Shown piece by piece: positions 21,010-38,797 of a DNA stretch of 63,263 nt. Below the pieces are notes generated by a model. The model ran no database searches. It saw only the letters and a program-made list of their open reading frames with translations, and had not been told where the DNA came from. This DNA is from Frankia torreyi (GTDB taxonomy: Bacteria > Actinomycetota > Actinomycetes > Frankiales > Frankiaceae), in the NCBI RefSeq assembly GCF_000948395.1, contig NZ_JYFN01000010.1, positions 56,636-119,898 of the forward strand. The letters run 5' to 3'. Both the position numbers and the translations under genes were made by a program. Each line of letters opens with the position of its first letter. Positions within the stretch are counted from its first letter, which is position 1.

Positions 21010-23258
21010 TGTCCGTGGACAGCTCGAACCGGCCCTCCGCCGCCATCCCGGACTTCTCCCAGGTGGAGCTCGGCGGCCCGCCGGCCGGCGCGGACACGCC
21101 CGAGGCCGCGTGGCGCACCGCGCTGGAGGCGGCGACCGGCAAGGACGTCGACGCCCTGACCTGGGACACCCCCGAGGGCATCGCGGTCAAGCCGCTCTAC
21201 ACTGCCACCGACACCGCCGGGCTCGACTTCCTGCGCACCTACCCGGGGATCGCGCCGTTCCTGCGCGGCCCCTATCCGGCGATGTACGTCACCCAGCCGT
21301 GGACGATCCGTCAGTACGCCGGGTTCTCCACCGCCGCGGCGTCCAACGCCTTCTACCGGCGCAACCTCGCCGCCGGCCAGAAGGGCCTGTCGGTCGCCTT
21401 CGACCTGCCGACCCACCGCGGCTACGACTCGGACCACCCGCGGGTCACCGGGGACGTCGGGATGGCCGGGGTGGCCATCGACTCCATCCTCGACATGCGC
21501 CAGCTCTTCGACGGCATCCCGCTGGACCGGATGAGCGTGTCGATGACCATGAACGGCGCGGTGCTGCCGGTGCTCGCGCTCTACATCGTGGCGGCCGAGG
21601 AGCAGGGGGTGGCTCCGGAGCAGCTCGCCGGGACCATCCAGAACGACATCCTCAAAGAATTCATGGTCCGCAACACCTACATCTACCCGCCGCAGCCGTC
21701 GATGCAGATCATCTCGGACATCTTCTCGTACACCTCGCAGAAGATGCCGAAGTTTAACTCGATCTCCATCTCCGGCTACCACATGCAGGAGGCCGGCGCG
21801 ACGGCCGACCTGGAGCTCGCCTACACCCTCGCCGACGGCGTCGAGTACATCCGCGCCGGCCTGGGCGCAGGGTTGGCGATCGACGCATTCGCCCCGCGGC
21901 TGTCGTTCTTCTGGGCGATCGGGATGAACTTCTTCATGGAGGTCGCCAAGCTGCGCGCGGCCCGGCTGCTGTGGGCGCGGCTGGTCAACCAGTTCTCGCC
22001 GACGAGCTCGAAGTCACTGTCGCTGCGCACCCACTCGCAGACGTCCGGCTGGTCGCTGACCGCCCAGGACGTGTTCAACAACGTGGTGCGGACCTGCGTC
22101 GAGGCGATGGCCGCCACCCAGGGTCACACCCAGTCGCTGCACACCAACGCCCTCGACGAGGCGCTGGCGCTGCCCACCGATTTCTCCGCCCGCATCGCCC
22201 GCAACACCCAGCTGCTGCTGCAGCAGGAGTCCGGCACCACCCGGGTCATCGACCCGTGGGGTGGCAGCCACTACGTCGAGCGGCTCACCTACGACCTGGC
22301 CCGCAAGGCGTGGGGTCACATCAGCGAGGTCGAGGCGTCCGGCGGCATGGCGCAGGCCATCGACGCCGGCATCCCCAAGATGCGCATCGAGGAGGCCGCG
22401 GCGCGTACCCAGGCGCGCATCGACGCCGGCCGCCAGCCGCTCATCGGCGTGAACAAGTACCGGGTGGCCGCCGACGAGGCGATCGAGGTCCTCAAGGTTG
22501 ACAACTCGGCGGTGCGTACCGAACAGATCGACAAGCTGCGCCGCCTGCGCGCCGAGCGTGACCCGGCCGCGGTCGAGGTGGCGCTGCACGCGCTCACCGC
22601 GGCCGCGGACGCCGCCCGCGACGGCCGTCGCGGTCCCGGCCTGGAGCAGAACCTGCTGGCGCTGGCCGTCGACGCGGCCCGCGCCAAGGCGACGGTCGGC
22701 GAGATCTCGGACGCGTTGGAGAAGGTCTACGGGCGCCATTCCGGCCAGATCCGTACCATCTCCGGGGTGTACCGGGACGAGGCGGGACCCGCCGGGAACG
22801 TCGCCGCCGCCCGCGAGGCCGCCGCCGAGTTCGAGCGCCAGGAGGGCCGCCGGCCGCGCATCCTCGTCGCGAAGATGGGCCAGGACGGCCACGACCGCGG
22901 CCAGAAGGTCATCGCCAGCGCCTTCGCCGACATCGGCTTCGACGTCGACGTCGGCCCGCTGTTCCAGACGCCCGCCGAGGTCGCCCGTCAGGCGATCGAG
23001 GCGGACGTCCAGATCGTCGGAGTGTCCTCGCTGGCCGCCGGGCACCTCACCCTGGTGCCCGCGCTGCGCGAGGAGCTCGCCGCGCTGGACCGGTCCGACA
23101 TCCTCATCGTGGTCGGCGGGGTCATCCCCCCGGGCGACTTCGACGAGCTGCGGGCCGCCGGGGCGGCGGCGATCTTCCCGCCGGGTACGGTCATCGCCGA
23201 CGCGGCGCTGGAGCTGCTCGCCACCCTGTCGGCGCAGCTCGGCCACTCCGCCGCCTGA
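21009..23258 (+). CDS. mutB: Methylmalonyl-CoA mutase large (catalytic) subunit
   Basis: 749 residues, starting in the TGATG overlap with mutA. The N-terminal barrel has the substrate-channel residues [18 protein letters not shown] and [12 protein letters not shown]. The C-terminal cobalamin-binding domain carries GQDGHDRG, with Asp626, His628 and Gly631 forming the DxHxxG base-off B12 motif, then the conserved GVSSLAAGH and GGVIPPGD. It rearranges (R)-methylmalonyl-CoA to succinyl-CoA by an adenosylcobalamin radical mechanism. The cofactor pathway is represented later in the window by cobL. Confidence 0.98.
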
Positions 23259-23347
23259 ACCGGTCGAGCTGTGGCATCTCTGGCAACGGCACCGCCGGCT
23301 ATGGCCTGGCCGGCACCGGCGCCGCCGGCTATGGCGTCGCTGACGTC

Positions 23348-24364
23348 GTGACCCGGCGCATCGATCTGACCGAGTACGCGGACGGCGTGCTGGCCTCGTC
23401 GCGGACCTGGATCGCGCGGGCCATCACGCTGGTCGAGTCCAGCCGGCCCGACCACCGGGAGCTCGCCCAGCAGTTGCTGGTGACCCTGCTCCCGCACGCC
23501 GGCAAGGCGCGCCGCGTCGGCATCACCGGGGTGCCGGGCGTGGGCAAGTCGACGTTCATCGACGCGCTGGGCACCATCCTGACCGGGCGAGGCCACCAGG
23601 TGGCGGTGCTCGCCGTCGACCCGTCGTCGACGCGGACGGGCGGCAGCATCCTCGGCGACAAGACCCGGATGGCCGCGCTGTCGGTGGACCCCGCGGCCTT
23701 CATCCGACCGTCGCCGACCGCGGGCACCCTCGGCGGGGTCGCGAAGGCCACCCGGGAGGCGATGGTGGTCATGGAGGCGGCCGGCTACGACGTCGTCATG
23801 GTCGAGACGGTCGGCGTCGGCCAGTCGGAGACGACGGTGGCCGACATGGTCGACACCTTCCTGTTCCTGACCCTGGCCCGCACCGGCGACCAGCTTCAGG
23901 GGATCAAGAAGGGCGTGCTGGAACTCGCCGACGTCATCGCGGTGAACAAGGCCGACGGCCCGCACGAGCTCGACGCCCGCCGCGCCGCCCGCGAGCTGGC
24001 CGGGGCGCTGCGGATGCTGCAGGGCTCCTCGGGGCCGCGCGACTGGAACACCCCGGTGCTCACCTGCAGCGCCGCCGAGCGCACCGGCCTCGACACCGTC
24101 TGGGCGCAGGTGGTCAAGCATCAGGACACCCTCGACGCCTCCGGCGAGCTCGCCGCCCGCCGCCGGCGCCAGCAGGTGGACTGGACCTGGGCGATGGTCC
24201 ACGACCGGCTGCTCGCCGAGCTGCGGGCGCACCCGCGCGTGCGGGAGATCGCCCCCGACCTCGAACGTCGCGTCCGCGACGGCACGCTCACCCCCGCCCT
24301 CGCCGCCGACGCGATCCTCGCCGCCTTCGGCGACCCTGCACCACCCTCCGGCACCGGGCGATAA
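23348..24364 (+). CDS. meaB: MeaB/ArgK-type GTPase chaperone of methylmalonyl-CoA mutase
   Basis: 338 residues from a GTG at 23348. It has the P-loop GVPGVGKST (about 59-67), VLAVDPSSTRTGGSILGDKTRM, the switch-like ETVGVGQSE and the guanine specificity motif NKAD. It guards MutAB, gating cofactor loading and rescue of inactivated enzyme. The 89-bp gap from mutB holds a duplicated block (ACCGCCGGCTATGGC at 23291 and GCCGCCGGCTATGGC at 23321) and no ribosome site ahead of the GTG. The same frame is open through the repeat but offers no start codon, so 23348 is the best start. Confidence 0.94.
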   Translation: MTRRIDLTEYADGVLASSRTWIARAITLVESSRPDHRELAQQLLVTLLPHAGKARRVGITGVPGVGKSTFIDALGTILTGRGHQVAVLAVDPSSTRTGGSILGDKTRMAALSVDPAAFIRPSPTAGTLGGVAKATREAMVVMEAAGYDVVMVETVGVGQSETTVADMVDTFLFLTLARTGDQLQGIKKGVLELADVIAVNKADGPHELDARRAARELAGALRMLQGSSGPRDWNTPVLTCSAAERTGLDTVWAQVVKHQDTLDASGELAARRRRQQVDWTWAMVHDRLLAELRAHPRVREIAPDLERRVRDGTLTPALAADAILAAFGDPAPPSGTGR

Positions 24365-24547: not shown

Positions 24548-27175
24548 GTGAGTTATCAGCTCGGTATCGATGTCGGATCCGCGAACACGATCGTTGCGGT
24601 CACGGACGGCGGCTGGCCCCGCGTGCTCGAACTCGGCGGGCAGCGGCGGCTGCCGTCGGTGGTGTTCGCGCCACCGGGCGGCGGTCTGCAGTTCGCCCGC
24701 GCGGCGGCCCGGCGCGCCCAGGCCGATCCGGCCCGGTCGGCGACCGATCTGCTACGCCGGCTCGGCGACGGCGGCCCGATCCTGCTCGGCGGCGCCGCCT
24801 ACAGCCGCGAGGGTCTGCTTGGCCGGCTGGTCGCCCATCTCGTCGGCCTGGCCGTTGATCAGCTCGGCGGGCTCCCGGACCAGGTGGTGGTGACCTTCCC
24901 GACGTTCTGGTCCCCGGGCCGGCGGGAGACCTTCACCGACGCGATCACCCAGCTCTCCGGGCTGGAGCTGCCGGTCGTGGCCCTGCCCGCGGCCGACGCG
25001 ATGGGGACGCTGCTCGCCCGCAGCTCGGTGACCCAGACGGTCGACCTCGTCGGCTGGTACGACCTCGGCGCGGGCTTCCTTGACGCCGCGGTCCTGTCCT
25101 TCTCGCCGTTCGGGTTCCAGCTCGTCGGCGCGCCGGCGGGGCTGCGTCACGGCGCCGGCCTCGATCTCGACGAGCTGCTGGTGGACCGGGTGCTGGCCGT
25201 GGCCGGCATCGCGCCCGCGCACCTCGACCGGGCCGACGCCGCCACCCGTGTCGCGCTCGCCCGCCTGCGCCGCGAGGCCGCGCAGGCCAAGGAGGTCCTC
25301 GCCGAGGAGGACGAGGTCGACCTGGCGGTGGAGCTGCCCGGCATCGACGCCTCGGTCACGCTGACCCGCGGCGAGCTGGAGACGCTCGCCGGCCCGACCG
25401 TCGACGACACCGTCGAGACCTTCCGGCGGGCGTTGCGCTCGGTGCCGGCGGACCCCGCCGACCTTTCTCGCATCCTGATGTCCGGTGGGGTGGCGCATCT
25501 GCCGCTGGTGGCGCGCCGGCTGCGTGCCGCCTTCCCGGAAATCGGCCGGATCGAGCACCGCGCGGACGCGGACGTGGCGATGGGCGCGGCACTGATCGCC
25601 GCCGACCTCGCCGATCGTTCCGCCCGGGCCGGTGGGGCGGTGTTCGGTGCCGTGGGAGCGGCGGGCGCCGGGGCCATCGAGGAGCCGTACGACGTCACCG
25701 CGGTCATCCGCCCGCCGGACGCCTCCAGCCTCACGTCGCTGCCGCCGTTCCTCTCCGGGGGCGGGACGCCGCCGCCGGGGGCCGGTGCCGGCGGGGCAGC
25801 CGGCGAGGGCGGGGCGGCGGTCGCCGCCGGATCGTCGGACGGCGGGACTCCGGGCCCCTACGGGGCGGCGGGCGGTTCACCCGGTTTCGGCGAGGCCACC
25901 GTGCTCACACCGGACGCCGGTCGCGGTCATGGCGCCGCCGGCCTGCCGGGTGGGGGCGGCGGTGGTGCGCTCGGCCAGCCGGGCGCGGCCCCCGGTGCCT
26001 ATGCCGCGGCCGCGAGCGCCGACGAGACCGGACTGCTCCCCGCGGACGCAGCGGGTGCGCCCGTGGGCGCCGCCGCGGACGCCGGGGGGTCGCATCGCGC
26101 CACGCAGGGAGGCGGCGGCGGGATCTTCGGGTCCCGTCGGGTCATGGTGGCCGCGGCGATCATCGCCGTCCTGTTCGTCGCCATCGGGACGACCGCCGGA
26201 GTCGTGCTCACGGGGCGCGACTCGGGTTCGGGCGGGGACTCCGTGGCCGCCGTCGGGGGAGCCTTCCCGACCACGGATCCGATTCCACCGTCGTCCAGTC
26301 CCACCTCCGAGCCGCCGGCCGCCACGAACCTCGTGCGGGTCGCGGGCTCCTCCGAGGTCGCCCCCATCACCGAGACCGCCTACAACGAGTTCCGCCAGAC
26401 CCAGCGCAACGTCACCGTCAACATCGAGGCGACCAGCACCGAGGACGGTTTCGCGGCCCTGTGCAGCGGCAAGGCCGAACTCGCCGACGCCTCCTTCGAG
26501 CTCACCCCGGGAATCGTCAAGGATCCCGGATGCGCGAAGCAGGTCGTCGGGTTCGAGGTCGCGCACCACACCCTGCCGATCGTGGTCAATCCACAGAACA
26601 CCTGGCTGCACTGCCTCAGCCTCAAGCAGGTCAAGCAGATCTGGGGCGCCGACTCGTCGGTGACCCGCTGGAGCCAGATCGACAGCTCGTTCCCGGACGA
26701 ACCGATCGCGTTCGTCGGCCCGCCCCACGACTCGGTGCAGGCGGAGGTCTTCAACGCGACCATCAGTGACGCCAGTGACCGCTCCCGCGCCTACCGGCAG
26801 GTGGACCTGAGCGGGGTCGCCAACGACGTCGCCGGCGACCGGTCGGCCATCGGTTTCCTGGATTACCCCACCTACGAGACGTTCGGCGCCAGGCTGCGCG
26901 GAGTGGAGATCAACAACGGCGAGGGGTGCGTCGCGCCGACCGCGGTGGCCGTCGGCACCGGGCTTTACCTGCCGCTGTGCAAGCCGCTGTTCGTCTACGC
27001 CCGCACCGACGCGCTGCGTCGGCCGGCGACCGCCGCCTTCCTGCGCTACTTCCTGGAGAATGGTCGCAAGATCGCCTTCGACGCGCACTACGTGCCGCGC
27101 AGCGACGACACGGTCGGGGAGAACGTCGCCAGGCTGGAGAAGCTGACGACGGGGGTGGGACCGGTACCCGCCTGA
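24548..27175 (+). CDS. Hsp70-like ATPase fused through a membrane helix to a PstS-like solute-binding domain (copy 1)
   Basis: 875 residues from the GTG at 24548 (CGGGAG upstream). Residues 1-350 form an Hsp70/actin-type ATPase: phosphate-1 loop GIDVGSANTIVAV, phosphate-2 WYDLGAGFLDAAV, a Lys/Glu-rich helix then VDLAVELPGID, and the adenosine motif LMSGGVAHLPLVARRL. No substrate-binding beta domain follows; instead there is a Gly/Pro/Ala-rich linker (about 360-530), one membrane helix (about 531-556) and an extracytoplasmic domain (about 592-875) resembling phosphate-binding PstS (RVAGSSEVAPITETAYNEF, then a conserved Cys pair region). So an ATPase inside is joined to a ligand-binding domain outside. 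Ligand and function are unknown. A strong hairpin follows the stop. Confidence 0.85.
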   Translation: MSYQLGIDVGSANTIVAVTDGGWPRVLELGGQRRLPSVVFAPPGGGLQFARAAARRAQADPARSATDLLRRLGDGGPILLGGAAYSREGLLGRLVAHLVGLAVDQLGGLPDQVVVTFPTFWSPGRRETFTDAITQLSGLELPVVALPAADAMGTLLARSSVTQTVDLVGWYDLGAGFLDAAVLSFSPFGFQLVGAPAGLRHGAGLDLDELLVDRVLAVAGIAPAHLDRADAATRVALARLRREAAQAKEVLAEEDEVDLAVELPGIDASVTLTRGELETLAGPTVDDTVETFRRALRSVPADPADLSRILMSGGVAHLPLVARRLRAAFPEIGRIEHRADADVAMGAALIAADLADRSARAGGAVFGAVGAAGAGAIEEPYDVTAVIRPPDASSLTSLPPFLSGGGTPPPGAGAGGAAGEGGAAVAAGSSDGGTPGPYGAAGGSPGFGEATVLTPDAGRGHGAAGLPGGGGGGALGQPGAAPGAYAAAASADETGLLPADAAGAPVGAAADAGGSHRATQGGGGGIFGSRRVMVAAAIIAVLFVAIGTTAGVVLTGRDSGSGGDSVAAVGGAFPTTDPIPPSSSPTSEPPAATNLVRVAGSSEVAPITETAYNEFRQTQRNVTVNIEATSTEDGFAALCSGKAELADASFELTPGIVKDPGCAKQVVGFEVAHHTLPIVVNPQNTWLHCLSLKQVKQIWGADSSVTRWSQIDSSFPDEPIAFVGPPHDSVQAEVFNATISDASDRSRAYRQVDLSGVANDVAGDRSAIGFLDYPTYETFGARLRGVEINNGEGCVAPTAVAVGTGLYLPLCKPLFVYARTDALRRPATAAFLRYFLENGRKIAFDAHYVPRSDDTVGENVARLEKLTTGVGPVPA

Positions 27176-27182
27176 CCAGGCG

Positions 27183-27209
27183 ACCGGCCCGCAGCGTGTG
27201 CGGGCCGGT
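27183..27209 (+). terminator. Perfect 11-bp hairpin after the first Hsp70-PstS fusion gene
   Basis: ACCGGCCCGCA (27183-27193) and TGCGGGCCGGT (27199-27209) pair perfectly around a 5-nt loop, 7 bp after the stop. It lies between convergent genes and could serve both. A 14-bp direct repeat (TCACGGACTCTCAG) follows at about 27284-27311, reaching the next stop codon. Confidence 0.65.
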
Positions 27210-27305
27210 TGATCTGCGTGGCAGGGTGGGGGACGCCGGCCGGGCGGTCGCACGGTGCGGCGAGCCTGCCGGCTCTCAGGTCACGGACTCTCAGATCACG
27301 GACTC

Positions 27306-27839
27306 TCAGGCGACGGAGTGGGTGACGGTGCAGGTGTAGGTGCCGACGATCACGTTCGTGGGAACGGCCACGGTGAGTGTCGGTTCCCACGAGACGGTGC
27401 TCGTGTCGAGATCCATCGTGGTGGCGGAGAAGGCGGTGCGGGAGGCGGCCAGCGTCACGGCACTCGTCGCGGTGGGCTGGCCGGGGCTGACCAGGGATGG
27501 CAGGCCGGTCGTGGCGGTGGCGGGGCCGGACCAGTAGATCAGCGACGCCCGGGGGATCGTCTCGTCGGACGCGCCGGTCCCGGTCGTGCAGTTCGTCGAG
27601 GTCACGGTGGCCGTCCAGGCGCCGACCAGAGCGGTGCTGGTGACGGTCGTCGTCGCCAGTTGGACGCTGAGCGGGTCGTCGCCGATCGCGTGCGAACCGA
27701 GGTTCGCCGTAGCGGGAGCGGTGATGGTCAGCGTCGCCTGGGCCGGACTGCCGGACCAGGTGACCAGCAGGATCACGAGGACCGTGAATGCCGAAAGCCT
27801 GCCTGTAGTCCGCCCGAGGCCGGGGAGGTTGCACCGCAT
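27306..27839 (-). CDS. Secreted WxL-like small surface protein A
   Basis: 177 residues. The ATG at 27839 has AGGAG 8 bp upstream. A signal peptide (hydrophobic LSAFTVLVILLVTWSG, cleavage near AQA-T) leads to a beta-rich, Thr/Ser-rich domain. It is a paralogue of the divergent neighbour: both share TITAPATA near the N-terminus, a W-x-A/S-x-V strand (GAWTATVTST here), an IYWSP/HYSPG-like turn, and near the end SWEPTLTVAVP with a closing YT-T-TH. This layout fits the WxL surface domain known from Firmicutes, supported by the adjacent DUF916-type gene. WxL domains bind peptidoglycan non-covalently. Two Cys (near Asn-Cys-Thr and Thr-Cys-Thr) may form a disulfide. Confidence 0.65.
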   Translation of the reverse strand: MRCNLPGLGRTTGRLSAFTVLVILLVTWSGSPAQATLTITAPATANLGSHAIGDDPLSVQLATTTVTSTALVGAWTATVTSTNCTTGTGASDETIPRASLIYWSGPATATTGLPSLVSPGQPTATSAVTLAASRTAFSATTMDLDTSTVSWEPTLTVAVPTNVIVGTYTCTVTHSVA

Positions 27840-28105
27840 CTCGACGACTCCTGACCGCATCCGCAGCACGATGCTGGCCTTGCTACCACGACGCACGAGG
27901 GTGGGTCTGGACCTCGGGGCCGGACGGGACGAGTCCGGCGGGGGCGGGGGCGAGCGGTGGCCGGGGAAGGCCGTCGAGACACGCGACTGTTGCTGTGTGT
28001 GTTCGTTCGCTACCCAGGGTGATAGCTTTCGCTGCGTGCCCGGCGGATCACATCTCTCGATACCGCAGCAGGGGCGCTCCGGCCTCACACAGGGGAGTAG
28101 TTACG

Positions 28106-28645
28106 TTGCGTAAGTCATCGCTGTTTCTTCTGAGCGCAGCCGCCGCGGCGGCCGCCCTTCTCGGCTCAGCGCTACCGGCCAATGCCGCGACCGCCGACAC
28201 CGTGGTGACCCTGACCCTCACCGGAGGGGCCGTGAACATCACGGCTCCGGCCACCGCTACCCTGACCGGCGCGATCGGGACGACGCCCGTGTCGGGTCCC
28301 CTCGGGCTCGTCACGGTCACCGACACCGAGGGCACCGAAGCGCCCTCCTGGGTGGCCAGCGTGTCCACCACCAACTTCAACGCGCCGGTGGGTTCCGGCA
28401 TCGCCCCGATTCCCGTCGCGAACATCCACTACTCGCCGGGCACGGTCACCCGCGTGAACAACACGGGAACCGCAAACGACGCCAACTTCACCGGCGAATT
28501 CGTCGCGGTCCCGACGGTGACGGCCACCGGCGGCCCCGGCATCAACTCGGCGTCATGGAACCCGACGCTGACGGTGGACATCCCGCCCACCGCCGTCGCC
28601 GGTACCAACTACACCGCCACGATCACCCACTCCACGGTGCCGTGA
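28106..28645 (+). CDS. Secreted WxL-like small surface protein B
   Basis: 179 residues from a TTG at 28106, chosen because AGGGGAG lies 8 bp upstream and the next residues (RKSSLFLLSAAAAAAALLG) make a normal signal peptide cleaved near ANA-A. The mature part contains VTVTDTEG followed by SWVASVSTTNF, the W-x-hydrophobic strand expected of WxL domains, and ends SWNPTLTVDIP...YTATITHS. It has no Cys. It diverges from paralogue A across a 266-bp region and is 13 bp ahead of the DUF916-type gene, so B and its partner form an operon. Role: probably a cell-wall-bound surface protein; ligand unknown. Confidence 0.7.
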   Translation: MRKSSLFLLSAAAAAAALLGSALPANAATADTVVTLTLTGGAVNITAPATATLTGAIGTTPVSGPLGLVTVTDTEGTEAPSWVASVSTTNFNAPVGSGIAPIPVANIHYSPGTVTRVNNTGTANDANFTGEFVAVPTVTATGGPGINSASWNPTLTVDIPPTAVAGTNYTATITHSTVP

Positions 28646-28658
28646 TCGGGGCTACGGG

Positions 28659-29687
28659 ATGAACAGAGGCACCCTCTTCGGTGCCCTCGCGGTGGTGGCC
28701 GGGATGCTCATCCCGGCCACCACCGTTCCTGCCGTGTCGGCCGCGCCCCGCAACGGGACCGTCAACTCCGACGGGACGTTCGGGATCAGGCTGGTCGAGG
28801 TCACCGCGTCGCTGTGGAAGGATCCCCGGGCCAGGCAGTACATCGTCGATCACCTCAACCCGGGCACCACGATGCGCCGCCAGGTGGAGGTCGTGAACAA
28901 CACCGACGCCCCGATGCGGATCGAGCTGTACCCGGGGGCCGCGAGCCTCGGTGAAAGCTCGTTCCACTTCGCCGAGGGGCGCAAGCCCAACGAGCTGACC
29001 ACCTGGGTCAGCCTGGACCGGAGCGCGATCGAGGTCGGCGCGCACTCCCGGGAGAAGGCCGTGGTGACTGTCGCCGTACCCCGGGACGCCTCGCCGGGCG
29101 AGCACTACGGCGTGCTCTGGGCGCAGGCGGGCAGCGCGGCGCCGAAGGGCAGCGGCTTCCAGATGGTCAACCGGGTCGGGATCCGGATGTACCTGGACAT
29201 CGGCCCCGGCGGCCCGCCCGCCGCCGGCTTCACCATCGCCGCACTCACCGCGAGCCGTCTGCTCGACGGGCGACTGGCAGTCGGTACCGAGATCCACAAC
29301 ACCGGTGGTCGGGCGTTGGACATGTCCGGCGAGCTGACGTTGACCAAGGGTCCGGGCGGCCTGCAGGCCGGACCGTTCCGGGCGAACCTCGGAACGACGA
29401 TCGCCCCTGGGGAGGTCAGCCCGGTCTCGTTCGCACTCGACGGGCAGATGCCGGCGGGCCCGTGGACCGCGACGGTGACACTGCACAGCGGGCTGGTCGA
29501 GCGGACCGCCACGGCGGTGATCCGTTTCCCTGACCGTCGCGGCGCCTCCGAACGGGTCCGAGTGAGTGGCGCCTCCACCCGCCGGGTCGCGGTCACGTCC
29601 GCGATCGTCACCGGCGGGTCGCTGTTCGGCGTCGGAATGCTGGTCATGCTCGCGCGCCGGTGGCGCCGACGCCGGTCGGCCTCCTGA
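28659..29687 (+). CDS. WxL-partner protein (DUF916/DUF3324-like), C-terminally membrane-anchored
   Basis: 342 residues. A signal peptide (cleaved near VSA-A, about residue 28) precedes two beta-sandwich domains. The first (about 38-180) reads like DUF916/WxL peptidoglycan-binding: LNPGTTMRRQVEVVNNTD, then TTWVSLD...IEVGAHSREKAVVTVAVP and SPGEHYGVLWA. The second (about 195-290) resembles DUF3324: GRLAVGTEIHNTGGRALD and APGEVSPVSFALDG. A final helix (about 305-328) and an Arg-rich tail anchor it. In Firmicutes these proteins accompany WxL proteins in surface complexes. It starts 13 bp after protein B and converges on the kinase gene, 18 bp apart. Confidence 0.75.
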   Translation: MNRGTLFGALAVVAGMLIPATTVPAVSAAPRNGTVNSDGTFGIRLVEVTASLWKDPRARQYIVDHLNPGTTMRRQVEVVNNTDAPMRIELYPGAASLGESSFHFAEGRKPNELTTWVSLDRSAIEVGAHSREKAVVTVAVPRDASPGEHYGVLWAQAGSAAPKGSGFQMVNRVGIRMYLDIGPGGPPAAGFTIAALTASRLLDGRLAVGTEIHNTGGRALDMSGELTLTKGPGGLQAGPFRANLGTTIAPGEVSPVSFALDGQMPAGPWTATVTLHSGLVERTATAVIRFPDRRGASERVRVSGASTRRVAVTSAIVTGGSLFGVGMLVMLARRWRRRRSAS

Positions 29688-29705
29688 TCCGCGGTCGGCA
29701 GGTGA

Positions 29706-32459
29706 TCAGCTCGCGCAGGCGTCGGACCAGGGGACGCCGGGGACGAATCGGCTCCACTCCGCCCGGCTCGGTGCCGCCCCCGGCTTCGCGCAGGCGCCCT
29801 GCCGCAGCCGCTGCGGGTCCAGCGTCCCGAGCAGGATCGTGCCCCTGTCGGTGGTCAGCGCGACGCTCCCCGCGGCGGTCGCGCTCATCGCCCGCACCGG
29901 CGAGTCCACGGTGCCCATGGGGATGAGCGCGGGCGCGGAAACGGCGAGATTCGAGTACGCGACGCTGCCTGCGCTGTCCGCGCTCAGCAACTGGTCGCCG
30001 GCGGCGAAGGCGACGGTGGTCACGGGCGCGGCGTGGCCGGGCAGGCGCTTCGCGACTCGCGGATGGTTCGGGTCGGCGACGTCGGACACCTGCAGGTTCT
30101 GGTCGTCGCCCCCGGTGGCCAGCAGCGTGCCGCCCGGGCTGAACGCCACCGTGTTGACGGCGCCGGTGTGGCCCGGCACCGAGCCCATCTGCGTGGGGTG
30201 GCGCGGGTCGCGCACGTTCCAGAGCTGGACGGTGCCGCCCACCCCGGCGATGGCGAGCACGGCCCCGTCGGGGCGCAGCGCCACCCCCGTCACCGGTCCG
30301 GACCGCCCGATCAGCAGTTGCAGGGAGGTGGGCCGGGCGGGGTCGGTGATGTCCCACAGCCCGACCGACCAGTCGACGCCGGCCGTGGCGAGCAGATGAG
30401 CCTTGGCGGACAGGGCCAGGCGGTGCACCGGAGTCGACTGGGTGCCGAGCGCGCCGAGCGGACGCGGCCTCGCCGGGTCGCTGACGTCCCACAGCCGACC
30501 GGCGTCGGTGGCCCCGCCGGTCGCCAGCGTCCGGCCGCCGTTGTCGAAGATCACCCCGCTGGCGTGGTCGTCGGCCGAGCCCTGCGCGGCGACGGTCGGC
30601 CGGCCGGCGTCGTCGAGGCGCCACAGGTGTAGCCGGCCGGCGTCGTCGGTGCCGGCGAGTGTCGTGCCATCCGGGCTGAGCGCGAGGTCGGAGTACGCCG
30701 ACGCGCCGGCGGGCACCCGTGTCGCGGTCGACTGCGCGAACGAGGCGATCAGCGCGTCCCGGGCCGCGGTGGTCGGGGCGAGCGTGTAGGCCGCGAGGCT
30801 GAGCCGCGCGGCGAGCTGCGGATCCTGGGCGCGACGTGCGGCGGCGTCGGTGGCCAGCCGCGTCGACGCGGCCGCTCGCTCGGCCGGGCTCGCGGCGCCC
30901 GGCCCGCCGCCGCCGCCCAGGACGATGACCGGAATCGCCACCGCGGCGGCGAGCAGGACCACCAGGGCGCCGGCGAGCACAAGCGCGCGGGGTCGGCGCC
31001 GGCGCCGGGTAGGCGGCGCGCTGTCCGGCGGACCACCCGGCGTCGTGGCTGCGCTGCCCGGTCCCTGTGCCGGCAGCGAGACGGATCCGCCTGGTGGGAC
31101 GGATCCGCCTGGCGGAAGGGACGGCGTCGCCGGCTCACCCGCACCGGTACGCCCCGCCGGGCCAGGGGAGCCGACCCGAGGTGGTGCCGAGCCCGGCGAC
31201 CCGCCGGGCGGTGGGGTCCGAGGTGAGACCGGGGGCGGGAAGGCCAGCGGCGCCGGCGACATCTGGGTCGCCGGCATCGCCGCGGCCGGTGGACCACCGC
31301 CGGCCGCGTACGGCGGCACCGCCGTGCCGGGGCGGCCGCCCCACGAGGCGGTCGCGGAGACCGTGGCCTCCCCGCCCGGTCCCGTGGCGGGCGGAACCGA
31401 TCCGCCGGACGCGGGTGCCCCCACCGAGCCGGTGAACCCTGCCCCCGCGATGCGCCCCGTAGCGCCTCCGGGACCCGCTGTGCCGGGTGGTGGCGCTGCC
31501 GGGCTCGGGGCTGCGGCGCCACGGCCACGCCGACCCCATCGCCGGGGCTGGGCGGCGGAGTTCTCGGCGGGCTCGTCCGGCGTTGCCTCCGGCGCCGGTC
31601 GAGCGGGCAGCGCCCCACCGCCGATCAGTGCCGTGCGCAGCTCCTCCGCGCTCGGGCGCGCCTCGGGGTTCTTCGCCATCGCGACCTCGATGAGGCCACG
31701 CAGTTCCCCGCTGACGCCGTCGAGCCGAGGCGGCTCGTTGATGATCCGGTAGAGGATCGCCTCCATCCGGCCGGTGCCGAACGGCGGCTGGCCGGTGGCG
31801 GCGAAGACCATGACCGCACCCCAGGAGAAGACGTCGACCGCCGAGGTGATCGGCGCGTCGAGAATCTGCTCGGGCGACATGTAGCCGGGCGTCCCGATGG
31901 CCTGGCGCACGTTCCGGCTGAGCTCGGTGTCGGCATTGAACTCGCGGGCCAGCCCGAAGTCGATCACCTTCGGGCCGACCGGGGACAGCAGCACGTTGCC
32001 GGGGGTGAGGTCCCGGTGCACGATCCCGGCGGCGTGGATGGCACTCAGCGCGGTGGTGACGCTGACGGCGAGCTGCTCGAGGTCGGCGGGCCGCATCGGC
32101 CCCCGGACCGAGACGTGCCGGGACAGCGTCGGGCCCTCGACGAACTCGGTCACGAGATACGGCTGCGGGCCGTGGGGGTCGGCGTCGAGCACGGCCGCTG
32201 TGGTGAACCGGCGCACCCGGCGCGCGCTTTCGGCCTCCCGGGCGAACCGGGCACGGAACTCGGGGCGCTGTGCGAGTTCCGGCCGGATCACCTTGATGGC
32301 CACCGCGGTGCCGTCGGGGGCCCGGCCGAGGAACACCGTGCCCATCCCACCCTGGCCGAGTCGGCCGATCACCTGGTAGGTGCCGAGGCGGCGGGGATCC
32401 TCGGGCTGCAGCGGGCGCGCCGTGTTCCCGGACAACGGTGGTGGTGTCGTCCCCGTCAC
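29706..32459 (-). CDS. Transmembrane Ser/Thr protein kinase with extracellular WD40-like propeller
   Basis: 917 residues from the GTG at 32459 (GGGAG upstream); a TTG at 32510 is also in frame. The kinase domain is complete: GQGGMGTVFLG, Lys56 in VAIKVI, HRDLTPGN (Asp150), DFG (Asp167) and GTPGYMSPEQ. A Pro/Gly/Ala-rich juxtamembrane stretch (about 285-485) leads to one membrane helix (about 488-512). Outside, after a helical Ala/Arg part, come about six WD40-like repeats (about 590-917), such as YSDLALSPDGTTLAGTDDAG and VNTVAFSPGGTLLATGGDD. A propeller could sense ligand or partner proteins. It lies 175 bp downstream of the second Hsp70-PstS fusion on the same strand. Confidence 0.92.
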   Translation of the reverse strand: MTGTTPPPLSGNTARPLQPEDPRRLGTYQVIGRLGQGGMGTVFLGRAPDGTAVAIKVIRPELAQRPEFRARFAREAESARRVRRFTTAAVLDADPHGPQPYLVTEFVEGPTLSRHVSVRGPMRPADLEQLAVSVTTALSAIHAAGIVHRDLTPGNVLLSPVGPKVIDFGLAREFNADTELSRNVRQAIGTPGYMSPEQILDAPITSAVDVFSWGAVMVFAATGQPPFGTGRMEAILYRIINEPPRLDGVSGELRGLIEVAMAKNPEARPSAEELRTALIGGGALPARPAPEATPDEPAENSAAQPRRWGRRGRGAAAPSPAAPPPGTAGPGGATGRIAGAGFTGSVGAPASGGSVPPATGPGGEATVSATASWGGRPGTAVPPYAAGGGPPAAAMPATQMSPAPLAFPPPVSPRTPPPGGSPGSAPPRVGSPGPAGRTGAGEPATPSLPPGGSVPPGGSVSLPAQGPGSAATTPGGPPDSAPPTRRRRRPRALVLAGALVVLLAAAVAIPVIVLGGGGGPGAASPAERAAASTRLATDAAARRAQDPQLAARLSLAAYTLAPTTAARDALIASFAQSTATRVPAGASAYSDLALSPDGTTLAGTDDAGRLHLWRLDDAGRPTVAAQGSADDHASGVIFDNGGRTLATGGATDAGRLWDVSDPARPRPLGALGTQSTPVHRLALSAKAHLLATAGVDWSVGLWDITDPARPTSLQLLIGRSGPVTGVALRPDGAVLAIAGVGGTVQLWNVRDPRHPTQMGSVPGHTGAVNTVAFSPGGTLLATGGDDQNLQVSDVADPNHPRVAKRLPGHAAPVTTVAFAAGDQLLSADSAGSVAYSNLAVSAPALIPMGTVDSPVRAMSATAAGSVALTTDRGTILLGTLDPQRLRQGACAKPGAAPSRAEWSRFVPGVPWSDACAS

Positions 32460-32634
32460 CGTGCCCCACTCCCGCGGGGCCGCCTCGGCCCCGCATGCCC
32501 CGCCCCGCAATCACGGCACGCCGACCTCAGCGTCCGTCTGACTCCATGTTCATACCAGGTGATGATGTAGTGCAGTGTCTCCGGATCAGACCAACATTGA
32601 CGTGTTCGCGACCGGTGAGCCGCCCTCTGGACGG

Positions 32635-35178
32635 CTACGCCGGTTTCACGGCCGGAACGCCGGCCGTCAGGTTCTGCACGATGGCGATGTTGTCACGCAC
32701 CGTGGCGTCGTCGCGGGCGATGTAGTGCGCCTGGGACGTGATCTCCTTCTGGTTCTGCAGGTAGTACCGCAGGAAGGCGGCCACCGCCGGCTTGCGCAGC
32801 GATGCCTTGTTCGCGTACAGGTACAGCGGCTTGCACAGCGGCATGTACATGCCGGTGCCGGCGGTGAGCGCGTTCGGCTCGACGCAACCGCGGCCGGAGT
32901 CGAGCTTGATGGCGCGCACCGCCCGGTTCGTCGTCAGGAAGTTCGAGTAATCCATGAAGGCGATGGCACCGCGGTCGCCGTCGACCCGGGCTGGGATCTC
33001 GTCGAGTTCCCGGGTCTCGTAGGCACGGGTGTTCGTCGAGCTGCCGGTCATGCTGGCGAGGAACACCTTGGCGTGGACGGTCGACGCCGCGGGGCCGATG
33101 GGGGACAGCGGAACGTTCGGGAAGCTCGGATCGACCTGGTTCCAGTTGGTCACCGTTGAGTCCCGCGCCCAGATGCGGCCGACCTGGGCCGTGGTCAGGC
33201 ACTGCGCCCAGGTGTTCTGCCTGCTCACCACGATCGGCAGCAGGTGGTGGGCGATCTCGAAGCCGGCGACCCGGGTCCCGCAGGCCTTGTCGGGCAGCGC
33301 GTAGGAGGCCCCGACGATGTCTGCCTGGCCGGCGCAGACCTTCTGGAAGCCGTCGTCCGTGTCGGTGCTGCCGACGCGGACGGTGACGCCCTTCGCCGAC
33401 TCGCGGAACAGGCTGTACGCCGTTCCGGTGATCGCGGCCACCTCCGCCGAACCCGTCGTGATCACTGCATTGGGATCGACGGCGCCGCCGCCGGCGCCTG
33501 CTCCGCCGGCGCCCGCCCCGCCCGCGATCCCGGCCGCCCGTTCGGCCGCGCGCATCGTGTCGGCGGGTAGCTGGGGATGCTGATCAACCGTCGAGCGGGG
33601 CGGTGCGGCAGCGGTCACCGAGGTGCCGTCGCCCCCGCCGGTCAGAACCAGGCCGAGAGTGACGCTTCCGGCGATGAACACGACCAGCGCCAGCACGCCC
33701 GCCAGGAGCCGGCGCCTCGGCCGACCGCCCGCCGACCAGCGCCGACGTCCGCCGGCCGCGGACGCCTGGGCGCCCTCACCCGACGCCGCGGCCGCGATCC
33801 CGCGCGGGCCGGCCGGCGCCGTCGGGGTGCCGGAACCCGCCCGGGCGCCCTGCGCGGCCGGATCCGGCGAACCCGGATCGCCCGCGGCCCCGGCCGCGGC
33901 CGCGGCCGCGGCACCCATCAAGGCACCCCCGGCCGCCGACGCACCCCCGGGCATCGACCCGTGGGACGCGCCGCCGGCGGCCCGCCGGTCGGCCGGACCC
34001 GACGACTCCGCCCTCGGTGGCGGGGTGTGCCCGACGACGGGCGGCACGCTTGGCGGCGGGGTTGTCGCGAAGGCGGCCGGGCCGAGCAGGACCGTCTCCG
34101 AGCTCGCCGGCTCGGCCACGGCGTCGCGCGCGGCGAGCAGCGCCGCCCCGAGGGCGAACTCGCCGTCGTGGCGGATCTCCAGCCGGCCCACGTCCGGAAA
34201 GTGCTCGCCGAGCAACCGGCTGACCAGTGGGATTCGTGCACCCGGACCGTAGACCGCGAGCAGGCCGAGCGCGCCGGTGTCGCTCGCCGCGGCGCGCACC
34301 GCCCGGGCCAGCACGCGGATCGAGTCATCGAGCAACGGCCGGACGAGCGACTCGTAGTCGTCCCGGCTGACCTGAACGACGGTGGTCGTGTCGCCGGTGG
34401 GCACGGCGACGTCGGCGAACGTCTCCTCGGTCAGGACCTCCCGGGCCTCGGCGCAGGCCGCGCCGAGGCGGGCGCCGTCGGCCGACGCCCGCGGGCCGCC
34501 GCGCAGACGCTCGCCCGCGTCGCCGACCAGCCCGGCGACGTGGGCGTAGAGCAGGTCGTCAAGCATCGAGGTCGACACGTCGGCGAGCCCGACCGGGGAA
34601 CCTACGGGCACGTAGCCGCCGGCCGTCGCGGTGAACACCGCCGCCTCGAACCAGTGCGACCCGAGCTGGTAGGTCGCCGCGCCGCGCCCGTCGGCCACGG
34701 GAGTGGTCTGCGAGAACAGGGCGGCCATCGCCTCCGTGGAGCTGCGGGCGACGACCGGAGTGGTGGTCTCCAGGCGGGCGATCGCGTCCGCGAGCCCCTC
34801 CTGCCGGCGCGCCGGCCAGGTCGCCGGGCTGGTCACGACGACCAGCTCCGGCGGTTCACCGCGCTGGGCGGTGGCTGTGCGGATCATCGCGTCGAGGAAG
34901 CGGGCGAGCAGTGCCGAGGCGGTGTAGCCGATCCCGCCGACGAGGATCGGCGTCGAGTCGCCGAGCCAGTGCACGAAGCCGTCGGCGGTCCGCTCCGGCT
35001 GGCTGGCTCGCAGCCGGACGGCTGAGCGCCCGACGCGCACCGAGCCGTCGGCGGCGAGATGGAGCACGGTCGGGATCTGCGGTTCGCCCTCGACGGCGAT
35101 GGCGGACGGCCAGCCGTTCTCCGCGATGGCGGCCGTGGTGACGTCGACGCCGGGACTGATGCCGAGCTGGTATCGCAC
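32635..35178 (-). CDS. Hsp70-like domain fused to PstS-like solute-binding domain (copy 2, degenerate ATPase)
   Basis: 847 residues from the GTG at 35178, preceded by CGGGGGAA. Same architecture as copy 1: Hsp70-like fold (1-350), Gly/Pro/Ala linker, membrane helix (about 487-510), PstS-like domain (about 573-847; TTGSAEVAAITGTAYSLF). The nucleotide site has decayed: phosphate-1 reads GISPGVDVTTAAI (the catalytic Asp is Ser), phosphate-2 reads TYQLGSHWFEAAVF (Asp to Gln) and the adenosine motif is VYGPGARIPLVSRLL. The binding-protein half is better conserved between copies (AHHLLPIVV, NTWAQCLTTAQV, YMPLCKPLYLYA). It is likely a pseudo-ATPase partner of copy 1, and may be cotranscribed with the kinase. 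Confidence 0.85.
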   Translation of the reverse strand: MRYQLGISPGVDVTTAAIAENGWPSAIAVEGEPQIPTVLHLAADGSVRVGRSAVRLRASQPERTADGFVHWLGDSTPILVGGIGYTASALLARFLDAMIRTATAQRGEPPELVVVTSPATWPARRQEGLADAIARLETTTPVVARSSTEAMAALFSQTTPVADGRGAATYQLGSHWFEAAVFTATAGGYVPVGSPVGLADVSTSMLDDLLYAHVAGLVGDAGERLRGGPRASADGARLGAACAEAREVLTEETFADVAVPTGDTTTVVQVSRDDYESLVRPLLDDSIRVLARAVRAAASDTGALGLLAVYGPGARIPLVSRLLGEHFPDVGRLEIRHDGEFALGAALLAARDAVAEPASSETVLLGPAAFATTPPPSVPPVVGHTPPPRAESSGPADRRAAGGASHGSMPGGASAAGGALMGAAAAAAAGAAGDPGSPDPAAQGARAGSGTPTAPAGPRGIAAAASGEGAQASAAGGRRRWSAGGRPRRRLLAGVLALVVFIAGSVTLGLVLTGGGDGTSVTAAAPPRSTVDQHPQLPADTMRAAERAAGIAGGAGAGGAGAGGGAVDPNAVITTGSAEVAAITGTAYSLFRESAKGVTVRVGSTDTDDGFQKVCAGQADIVGASYALPDKACGTRVAGFEIAHHLLPIVVSRQNTWAQCLTTAQVGRIWARDSTVTNWNQVDPSFPNVPLSPIGPAASTVHAKVFLASMTGSSTNTRAYETRELDEIPARVDGDRGAIAFMDYSNFLTTNRAVRAIKLDSGRGCVEPNALTAGTGMYMPLCKPLYLYANKASLRKPAVAAFLRYYLQNQKEITSQAHYIARDDATVRDNIAIVQNLTAGVPAVKPA

Positions 35179-36230: not shown

Positions 36231-37298
36231 TCAGGCGGGCTGGTGCTCGGGCCGGTGACCGCCGCGGACCGCGTCGTCGCGGATCTTGCCAACCAGTTCC
36301 TCGAGGATGTCCTCCAGCGCGACGAGTCCCAGCACCGAGCCCTGGGCGTCGGTGACCCGGGCGAGATGGGCGCCCGACTGCTGCATCGTCGCGAGGGCCG
36401 TGCGCAGGCTGTCCTCGGCGCCGACATGCGCCAGCGGCCGGATCCACTTCGCCGCCACCGGGCTCGACCGCCGTTCCGGGCGGGTCTCCAACACGTCCTT
36501 CAGATGCAGGTAGCCGGTCATCTCGTCGCCGCCGTCCTGCACGGGGAAACGGGTGAACCCGGTGCGCGCGGCGAGCCGCTCGACCTGCCGCGGAGTGATC
36601 GTCGGCGGGACCGTGACCAGCCCGTCCGGCGCGAGCAGCACGGCGCGCGCCGTGCGCTCCTCGAACGACAGGGCTCCCGTCAGCAGCTCGTGCTCGTCCT
36701 CGGCGAGCAGGCCCTCCCGGTGCGACTCCTCGATGAGGCCGGCCACCTCGTCGCGGGTGAAGACGCTGGCCACCTCGTCCTTAGGCTCGACGCCGACGAC
36801 GCGCAGCGACATGCCCGCCACCGCGTTCAGCAGCATGATCACCGGCTTGCCCAGCCGGACGACGCCGACCAGCAGCGGAGCCAGCAGCAGCACGGCCCGA
36901 TCCGGCATGGCGAGCGCGATGTTCTTGGGCACCATCTCCCCGACGACCACGTGCAGGAAGGTCACCAGGGCCAGCGCGATCGCGAAGGACACCGGGTGCA
37001 GCAGCGCCGAGGGCAGCCCGGCCGCCTCGAAGGGGCCGTGCATCAGGTCCGCGATCGCCGGCTCGCCGAGCGCGCCCAGCCCGAGGGTGCAGACGGTGAC
37101 GCCGAGCTGCGCGCCGGCGAGCATCAGTGACACGTTCTCCATCGCGCCGAGGGTGATCCTCGCCAGCCGGGAACCGGCCTGCGCCATCGGCTCGATGCTC
37201 GTCCGCCGGGCGGAGATCAGCGCGAACTCGGCGCCGACGAACAGCGCGTTGAGCACCAGCAGCAGGATCGTGGCGGCGATCGCCAGCAGGCCGCTCAT
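36231..37298 (-). CDS. CNNM/CorC-type membrane protein, short form (DUF21 + CBS pair)
   Basis: 355 residues, starting in the ATGA overlap with the upstream paralogue. An N-terminal DUF21 transmembrane domain with about four helices (1-180; LNALFVGAEFALISARRTSIEP, MVPKNIALAMPDRAVLLLAP) is followed by two CBS motifs (about 215-335). The C-terminal CorC_HlyC domain of longer members is missing. The family handles Mg2+/Co2+ or Na+/Mg2+ exchange; older annotation calls it hemolysin. It probably acts as a pair with the long form just upstream. Confidence 0.9.
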   Translation of the reverse strand: MSGLLAIAATILLLVLNALFVGAEFALISARRTSIEPMAQAGSRLARITLGAMENVSLMLAGAQLGVTVCTLGLGALGEPAIADLMHGPFEAAGLPSALLHPVSFAIALALVTFLHVVVGEMVPKNIALAMPDRAVLLLAPLLVGVVRLGKPVIMLLNAVAGMSLRVVGVEPKDEVASVFTRDEVAGLIEESHREGLLAEDEHELLTGALSFEERTARAVLLAPDGLVTVPPTITPRQVERLAARTGFTRFPVQDGGDEMTGYLHLKDVLETRPERRSSPVAAKWIRPLAHVGAEDSLRTALATMQQSGAHLARVTDAQGSVLGLVALEDILEELVGKIRDDAVRGGHRPEHQPA

Positions 37299-38797
37299 CG
37301 TTGCGCCGCCCGCCCGAGCGCCTCGGGCGCGCCGCCCGCGGCCGGCTGGCGTGATCCGTCGCCGTGCGTCCGGGAGCCGGACCCGCCGCCACGCTCGCGC
37401 GGGCCGGTGGACCGCTCGCGGTGCCCCCCTGACCGATCGCGATCCCGCGTCCCCGTGGGCCGGTGCGTCGCAGCCGGGTCGTCCGCCATGGTGACCCCTC
37501 GCGGGGCCACCGGCTCCAGCCGGATCCGGTCCACCCGCCGGCCGTCCATCCGCTCGACGGTGTAGCGGACCCCCTCGACGGCCGCCGCGTCCCCCGCCCG
37601 GGGGATGCGGCCCAGCGCGCGGGCCACCAGACCGCCGAGCGTCTGGTACGTGTCGTCGGTCGGGATCGCGATCCCGGTGACGTTGCTCGCCTCCTCCGGA
37701 CGAAGCAGGCCGGACAACAGCCAGCTACCGTCGTGACGGCGCAGGGCCCGGGGGGAGACCCGATCGTGTTCGTCGACGACGTCGCCGACGATCTCCTCGA
37801 TCAGATCCTCGGCGGTGACCAGACCGTCCGTGCCGCCGAACTCGTCGACGACGATGGCCATCTGCAGCCCGCCGGCCCGCAGCGTCTCCAGCAGCGGCTC
37901 CAGCAGGAGTGTGGAGGGGACCGTGACCGGCGCGACCATGACGTCACGCACCGGTGTGTCCTCCCGGTCGTCCTCGGGGACGCCGACCGCGTTCTTGATG
38001 TGGATCACTCCCACGACGTCGTCGCTGTCCGCGCCGAGCACCGGGAACCGGGAGTGGCCGGTTCGCCGAGTGAGGGTGATGACCTCACTGATCGGCTCAT
38101 CGGCGTGCACCGTGCGCATCCGCATCCGTGGGGTCATCACGTCCTCGGCGGTCCGGTCACCGAACAGCAACGAGCGCTGCACCAGCGTCGCCGTCTCCTG
38201 CGACAGGGTGCCGTGCTCGGCGGACCGCCCCACCAGCGAGAACAGTTCCTGGGCGGAGCGGGCCGAGGCCAGCTCCTCCTGCGGAGAGATGCCAAGCCGG
38301 CGCAGCACGGCGTTCGCGGTCGCGTTCAGGAAGCGGATCAGCAGCCCGGTGGCCCGGGTGAACATCCGCTGCGGCCCCTGCACCGCCTTGGCCGTACCAA
38401 GCGGATGAGCCAGCGCCAGGTTCTTGGGGACGAGTTCGCCGAACACCATCGTCACGGCGGTGGCGAGCACCATCGCGACCACCACGGACAAGGCGCCGGC
38501 CAGCCCGTCGGAGGCACCGAGCGAGGTCAGCGGCCCGCGCAGCAGCTCGGCGATGGCGGGCTCGGTCAGGAAACCGATCGCCAGGTTCGTGACCGTGATC
38601 CCGAGCTGGGCGCCGGACAGTTGGGTGGACAGCCCGCGCAGGGCGGCGAGCACACCCCGGGCACCCCGCTCGCCCCGGTCGGCGGCCCGCTGCACCGACG
38701 GCCGGTCGGCGGTGACGAGAGCGAACTCTGCGGCCACGAAGACCCCGCAGATGGCGACGAGCGCCAGGCCCAGCACCAGCAGAAGCGCCTCGATCAT
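37295..38797 (-). CDS. CNNM/CorC-type membrane protein, long form (DUF21 + CBS + CorC_HlyC)
   Basis: 500 residues from the ATG at 38797. Order: DUF21 membrane domain (1-195; FVAAEFALVTADRPSVQR, VFGELVPKNLALAHP), CBS pair (about 215-340; TPRMRMRTVHADEPISE, VVDEFGGTDGLVTAEDLIEEIVGD), then a CorC_HlyC domain (about 345-430; LLSGLLRPEEAS) and an Arg/Gly/His-rich tail of about 60 residues. It is first in a two-gene operon with the short paralogue (4-bp overlap). Likely a divalent-cation transporter or efflux protein of the cytoplasmic membrane. Confidence 0.92.
   Translation of the reverse strand: MIEALLLVLGLALVAICGVFVAAEFALVTADRPSVQRAADRGERGARGVLAALRGLSTQLSGAQLGITVTNLAIGFLTEPAIAELLRGPLTSLGASDGLAGALSVVVAMVLATAVTMVFGELVPKNLALAHPLGTAKAVQGPQRMFTRATGLLIRFLNATANAVLRRLGISPQEELASARSAQELFSLVGRSAEHGTLSQETATLVQRSLLFGDRTAEDVMTPRMRMRTVHADEPISEVITLTRRTGHSRFPVLGADSDDVVGVIHIKNAVGVPEDDREDTPVRDVMVAPVTVPSTLLLEPLLETLRAGGLQMAIVVDEFGGTDGLVTAEDLIEEIVGDVVDEHDRVSPRALRRHDGSWLLSGLLRPEEASNVTGIAIPTDDTYQTLGGLVARALGRIPRAGDAAAVEGVRYTVERMDGRRVDRIRLEPVAPRGVTMADDPAATHRPTGTRDRDRSGGHRERSTGPRERGGGSGSRTHGDGSRQPAAGGAPEALGRAAQR

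Follow-up and report, generated by a model that had tools for sequence, protein, structure and literature searches.

What might a bacterium do with a membrane protein that carries an Hsp70-type domain inside the cell and a PstS-like binding domain outside? Two genes in the window (the whole stretch of 63,263 nucleotides from Frankia torreyi that was analyzed) raise this question. Frankiaceae are actinobacteria that include nitrogen-fixing plant symbionts. An earlier note on this DNA had proposed that the two products, here named P1 and P2, couple a chaperone-type ATPase to outside ligand capture as a sensor or transporter-like machine. The most economical reading of our analysis is that P1 and P2 are bitopic sensors or adaptors with a predicted nonhydrolyzing Hsp70 domain, acting with a neighboring kinase. 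We put this forward tentatively, giving it slightly less than an even chance.

P1 (875 aa; 24548..27175, plus strand) and its paralog P2 (847 aa; 32635..35178, minus strand) are each encoded by one uninterrupted open reading frame (ORF) and share the order Hsp70-type nucleotide-binding domain (NBD), linker, transmembrane helix (TM), and PstS-type periplasmic-binding-protein-like (PBP) domain. In P1, the NBD covers aa 1-356 (24548..25615), the membrane helix predicted by hydropathy aa 532-550 (26141..26197), and the PBP domain begins at aa 594 (26327..27172), all on the plus strand. The corresponding parts of P2, on the minus strand, are aa 1-356 (34111..35178), aa 494-512 (33643..33699, also by hydropathy), and from aa 570 onward (32638..33471). 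Matches to Pfam HSP70 (1.7e-28 for P1 and 1.8e-11 for P2) and PBP_like_2 (7.7e-18 and 2.4e-16) exceeded the curated cut-offs; the NCBIfam model PstS_2 (TIGR02136) matched with 2.5e-42 and 4.4e-37, in both cases under its whole-protein cut-off. Among solved sequences, the NBD came closest to DnaK and the ectodomain to 4jwo, which is a possible phosphate-binding protein. Furthermore, the AlphaFold model of the P2 NBD (pLDDT 91) matched the DnaK NBD in Foldseek (4e-26), and that of the P1 PBP domain (pLDDT 86.5) matched 4jwo (2.8e-28). Domain search and structure prediction thus confirmed the architecture described in the earlier note, namely, an Hsp70-like domain, a low-complexity linker, a single TM, and a PstS-like domain that does match PBP families. 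Nor do the proteins have an Hsp70 peptide-binding domain (SBD), as the earlier note had stated: the Pfam HSP70 match covers the NBD part only, ending at about profile position 375 of 599, and is followed by the linker and TM. No NCBIfam match to a T7SS-associated family was found for P1 or P2.

Each protein has a single strong hydrophobic segment, preceded by basic residues. The five Cys residues of P1 are all in the ectodomain, and neither a lipobox nor a signal peptide is evident at the N terminus. From these features we infer an N-in/C-out topology, with which they all agree.

An artefact caused by a missed stop codon or a frameshift was ruled out, since both ORFs are uninterrupted and the full-length fusion recurs across the family at approximately 40 to 95% identity. 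Indeed, P1-like fusions were present in nearly all Frankiaceae genomes searched, and the named records matching the fusion PBP profile all belong to Frankia, Parafrankia, or Pseudofrankia. Some genomes of genus g1 have P2, as do some of g2, where it lies apart from P1. Across P1 and P2 rows, 32 NBD and 49 PBP columns were invariant, and mean identity was 62.5% for the PBP domain versus 56.7% for the NBD. In two cases, P2 of Frankia sp. QA3 (L058, 12922-15470) and P1 of G007 (L030), the gene is seemingly split across two overlapping frames, by a frameshift or an assembly error.

The wider search used class-wide and phylum-wide samplings of 296 and 297 genomes, which overlap in part and include the genome of the window; the class-wide sampling also took in family members. 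In neither was a PBP fusion seen outside Frankiaceae. The PBP relatives there were of stand-alone length, with some longer open frames. Seven of the longer frames, among them the two longest with 1132 and 886 aa, were translated and turned out to be stand-alone PstS-type proteins with frames extending upstream by chance; the remaining long frames include those of G327 (674 aa) and G465 (512 aa). The rarity expected for the fusion was thus borne out in samplings of other Actinobacteria. Among titles and abstracts of open-license PMC papers, none described an Hsp70 NBD-TM-PBP fusion, and we regard it as provisionally novel.

The nucleotide-binding residues were scored by alignment to DnaK of the same genome, the numbering of which is used here. 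P1 shows the full Hsp70 NBD fold with recognizable phosphate-1, phosphate-2, and adenosine loops, and P1-type NBDs retain D8, D194, and the GG of the adenosine loop. In these NBDs, K70 is replaced by A, D, E, N, or Q, E171 by A or S, G197 by A, and T199 by F, H, L, S, or A. K70 and E171 were replaced in every fusion row, and T199 was never Thr (Ser in some). P2-type NBDs have diverged more strongly: the NBD of P2 in the window, also of full Hsp70 fold, lacks K70, E171, and T199 and has additionally lost D8, D194, two phosphate-2 glycines, and one adenosine-loop Gly. In DnaK, T199A strongly reduces ATPase activity, and T11 and K70 are gamma-phosphate sensors (PMC12406271, PMC13012618). Because of these losses and the published work on DnaK, we predict that P1 does no more than bind nucleotide, without ATP hydrolysis, and that P2 probably does not bind ATP in the canonical manner. 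The term chaperone-type ATPase is therefore not upheld, since every fusion has replacements at the residues that hydrolyze ATP or sense its gamma-phosphate. There is precedent for a nonhydrolyzing Hsp70: the noncanonical Ssz1 of the RAC complex binds ATP without hydrolyzing it (PMC10191838), and the P2 NBD model also matched 4gni in Foldseek. In contrast to P1 and P2, Ssz1 is ribosome-associated, keeps a rudimentary SBD, and has no membrane or PBP part. DnaK itself differs from P1 and P2 in its peptide-binding domain and intact K70, E171, and T199, whereas the fusions are membrane anchored and carry a sensor-type ectodomain.

In fold and in much of its sequence framework, the outer domain agrees with PstS_2 and 4jwo, and four ectodomain Cys residues are common to the fusions and to stand-alone actinobacterial PBP relatives. 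Unlike PstS_2 proteins, the fusions have a TM and an NBD in place of a lipoprotein signal. Phosphate-contact roles were assigned to residues of the PstS contact loops (GSS-T, SGTGG, AS-R, and S-G-T) from general features of PstS proteins and the 4jwo alignment. These residues are changed throughout the 24 fusion rows, and the 4 stand-alone actinobacterial rows all have them. In the fusions, the Thr of GSS-T became Glu, the Arg of AS-R became Phe or Tyr, and S-G-T became [ST]V[QHP]. The Asp of the ANDAL motif is His in most fusions and Asn or Glu in some. Since the contact loops are changed in every fusion row, phosphate binding in the PstS manner is unlikely. New invariant residues appeared as well, namely, the Glu mentioned above, an Asp, and the Cys-Lys of PLCKPL. 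The near or complete invariance of the new pocket-loop residues (E, D, mostly H) suggests selection for a new site and not decay. All fusions have the PLCKPL Cys as a fifth ectodomain Cys, which stand-alone relatives lack; it may be intermolecular.

A transporter-like machine finds no support in these data. The proteins have one TM only and so form no channel, and no permease or ABC ATPase (PstCAB) was found among the scanned genes around P1 and P2. Besides the replaced phosphate-contacting residues, the genome encodes elsewhere a separate PstS lipoprotein adjoining a PstC-type permease (G000:C99). Of the earlier note's two suggestions, the sensor stays as one option, and the transporter-like machine is disfavored.

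The conserved neighbor of P1 is a Ser/Thr protein kinase with a TM and a WD40 propeller (29706..32471, minus strand), the ORF of which lies 125 bp from P2 on the same strand. Its VAIK, HRD, and DFG motifs are intact, and the complete copies from other loci have VAIK, HRDL, and DFG motifs, a TM, and WD40 repeats (in L076, VAIK was not matched by the pattern), making the kinase apparently active. In several loci the contig terminates within the kinase gene, so that only the WD40 part is visible. The kinase is next to P1 in 20 of the 22 assessed loci, with WxL genes intervening in some Frankia. One exception is Frankia sp. AgB32 (L059), which has P1 and WxL-like genes and no WD40 kinase at the locus; the other is a Candidatus Frankia contig, in which an assembly gap directly follows P1. 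The two genes converge in most loci of Frankia and Parafrankia; in g6 genomes (including Pseudofrankia), they lie on the same strand, 51 to 238 bp apart. Since the orientation differs between groups and the kinase nevertheless stays beside P1, the adjacency outlasts inversion. Part of it may be general synteny, because the MCM/MeaB, MTase, and CNNM neighbors are largely syntenic too.

In the window, a small WxL-like secreted protein (27306..28088, minus strand), a second one (27995..28645, plus strand), and a WxLIP_PGBD-like membrane protein (28659..29687, plus strand; Pfam E=0.003, below the cut-off) are encoded between P1 and the kinase. This WxL-like trio occurs in some Frankia loci only and was ruled out as a general partner of P1. 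A census asking whether WxL/DUF916 genes always accompany the fusion thus pointed to the kinase as the conserved neighbor instead.

A possible link between fusion and kinase lies in the linker. Among 21 aligned fusions, its only invariant column is Thr384 of P1 (25697..25699, plus strand; context EEPYDV-T-AVIRPP), the counterpart of which in P2 is Thr362 (34093..34095, minus strand; context SE-T-VLLGP). The motif T-[ASV]-[VIL]-[VIL]-[RGA], defined after viewing this alignment, was present in 20 of 21 linkers versus 0.2 expected from shuffles, which do not remove the kinship among the sequences. Distal copies (EATVLT, DATVIG) numbered 8 in the P1 and P2 distal linkers, with 0.7 expected from shuffles, and the control with kinase linkers gave 2 matches versus 0.37 expected; on these counts, we rejected generic low complexity as the source of the motif. 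As the pattern was written post hoc and the shuffles leave relatedness in, all these counts describe the motif and do not prove it. The linker motif resembles the GarA ETTS site (PMC12321487). Moreover, the context of Thr384 in P1 is close to the preferences of PknA-dependent sites in a pLogo analysis, with acidic residues at -3 to -6, a hydrophobic one at +3, and a basic one at +4 (PMC7164672). Thr384 of P1 and Thr362 of P2 may therefore be candidate phosphoacceptors, or else part of a derived Hsp70 interdomain linker.

Taken together, kinase adjacency, the residue losses, the invariant Thr motif, and a precedent from other actinobacteria support a sensor that acts with the kinase. In that precedent, a route from the binding protein GlnH via GlnX to the kinase PknG has been proposed, and single-chain kinases with a solute-binding domain, such as MSMEG_1200, exist as well (PMC6069109). 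As in these systems, a binding protein on the outside would feed a Ser/Thr kinase; in contrast to them, an Hsp70 NBD is joined to the binding domain here, and a separate kinase has a WD40 ectodomain of its own. In our proposal, P1 and P2 cross the membrane once, N-in/C-out, and serve as sensors or adaptors. Their outer domain, derived from a PstS-type protein with the phosphate pocket gone, would probably sense an envelope protein or a small ligand other than phosphate. The Hsp70 domain inside the cell would act as a conformational or protein-binding module, which may still hold nucleotide in P1 and probably does not in P2. The output would run via the WD40-bearing membrane kinase, either by phosphorylation of the linker Thr or by direct modulation of the kinase. 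Against this coupling stand, besides the possible general synteny noted above, P1 without the kinase at the AgB32 locus and the possible sensor (WD40) that the kinase itself carries. If the proposal is true, evolution has recruited an Hsp70 fold for the cytoplasmic half of a bacterial transmembrane receptor and has turned a solute-binding domain from transport to signaling. Furthermore, the conserved P1-kinase gene pair would offer a directly testable sensor-kinase partnership in Frankiaceae, in a field in which the activation of bacterial Ser/Thr kinases has been called an outstanding question (PMC6069109).

The Thr motif can also be read without the kinase. P1 might be a ligand-gated allosteric module of the Hsp70 type, in which binding on the outside shifts the NBD and thereby acts on a cytoplasmic partner, the motif being a remnant of the NBD-docking interdomain linker and the kinase a mere neighbor. 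The position of the Thr near the hydrophobic interdomain linker of DnaK could explain its conservation for docking: the GAA-to-Thr spacing is 18 in many fusions, near the approximately 15 counted by eye in the DnaK linker of the same genome, the +2 and +3 positions are hydrophobic like VLLL in DnaK, and P1 retains D8, D194, and the GG of the adenosine loop. However, many other membrane Hsp70 relatives are without the motif, which speaks against a relic shared by all such linkers, the gamma-phosphate-sensing K70 is lost, and distal copies such as DATVIG recur more often than expected (8 versus 0.7). This explanation also leaves the kinase adjacency unaccounted for. We consider it unlikely as a whole, but NBD docking has to be taken seriously as an account of the Thr motif.

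Similarly improbable, in our estimation, is a purely structural or localizing role, in which the two domains, the inner one of the Hsp70/actin superfamily, tether a complex of surface proteins, peptidoglycan, and kinase in the envelope without any small-molecule ligand. It would suit domains that are strongly conserved, the PBP part even more than the NBD, while ATPase and ligand loops are degenerate, and it would give a use to the fusion-specific fifth Cys and to the WxL-like wall proteins close by in some Frankia; the retained PBP fold and the new, (nearly) invariant E, D, and mostly H in the pocket loops speak against it. Far less probable still is the version of the earlier note, an active Hsp70-type ATPase driving a transporter-like or capture machine. 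The overall Hsp70 and PBP folds and the retained D8 and D194 of P1 would agree with it, but K70, E171, and T199 (Ser in some) are replaced in the P1 type, P2 of the window also lacks D8 and D194, a single TM provides no channel, and PstS with a PstC-type permease is encoded elsewhere. A decaying fusion without function is hardly credible: the NBD of P2 is degenerate, and the QA3 P2 and G007 P1 genes each lie on two overlapping frames, but P1 is full length across the family and the 32 NBD and 49 PBP columns are invariant over P1 and P2 rows.

The sensor reading can be placed in a wider setting. With the NBD profile, we detected more membrane Hsp70 proteins in Frankiaceae, including the genome of the window, and in other actinobacterial families of the class, with a related NBD, linker, and TM layout. 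Their outer parts are a ricin-type lectin or a beta-propeller in several cases and have no Pfam match in others; none with a PBP outer domain was seen outside Frankiaceae. Unlike P1 and P2, the membrane Hsp70 proteins checked keep the catalytic residues (E171, D194, GGG, and T199), with the exception of K70. It is possible, with the balance somewhat against it, that the fusions represent a new receptor architecture, in which a probably nonhydrolyzing Hsp70 domain takes the place of a kinase or cyclase as the cytoplasmic sensor half. The PBP fusion would then be the Frankiaceae branch of a modular membrane Hsp70 set with exchangeable outer domains (PBP, ricin-type lectin, beta-propeller), some with similar STPK-like linker motifs.

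Two further Hsp70 proteins of the same genome were recorded. One is an Hsp70-TM-ricin-lectin protein (L038, 5667-7817) near a beta-helix/AAA gene, the NBD of which keeps its catalytic residues except K70, and the other is an Hsp70-WD40 protein (L041, 4266-7043) with no TM by hydropathy. In the window, P1 is adjoined at 19102-24364 by two ORFs resembling methylmalonyl-CoA mutase subunits and a MeaB-type GTPase (Pfam 2e-114). These mutase/MeaB genes are largely syntenic across the family, as are tandem CNNM/CorC-type membrane proteins (36231-38797).
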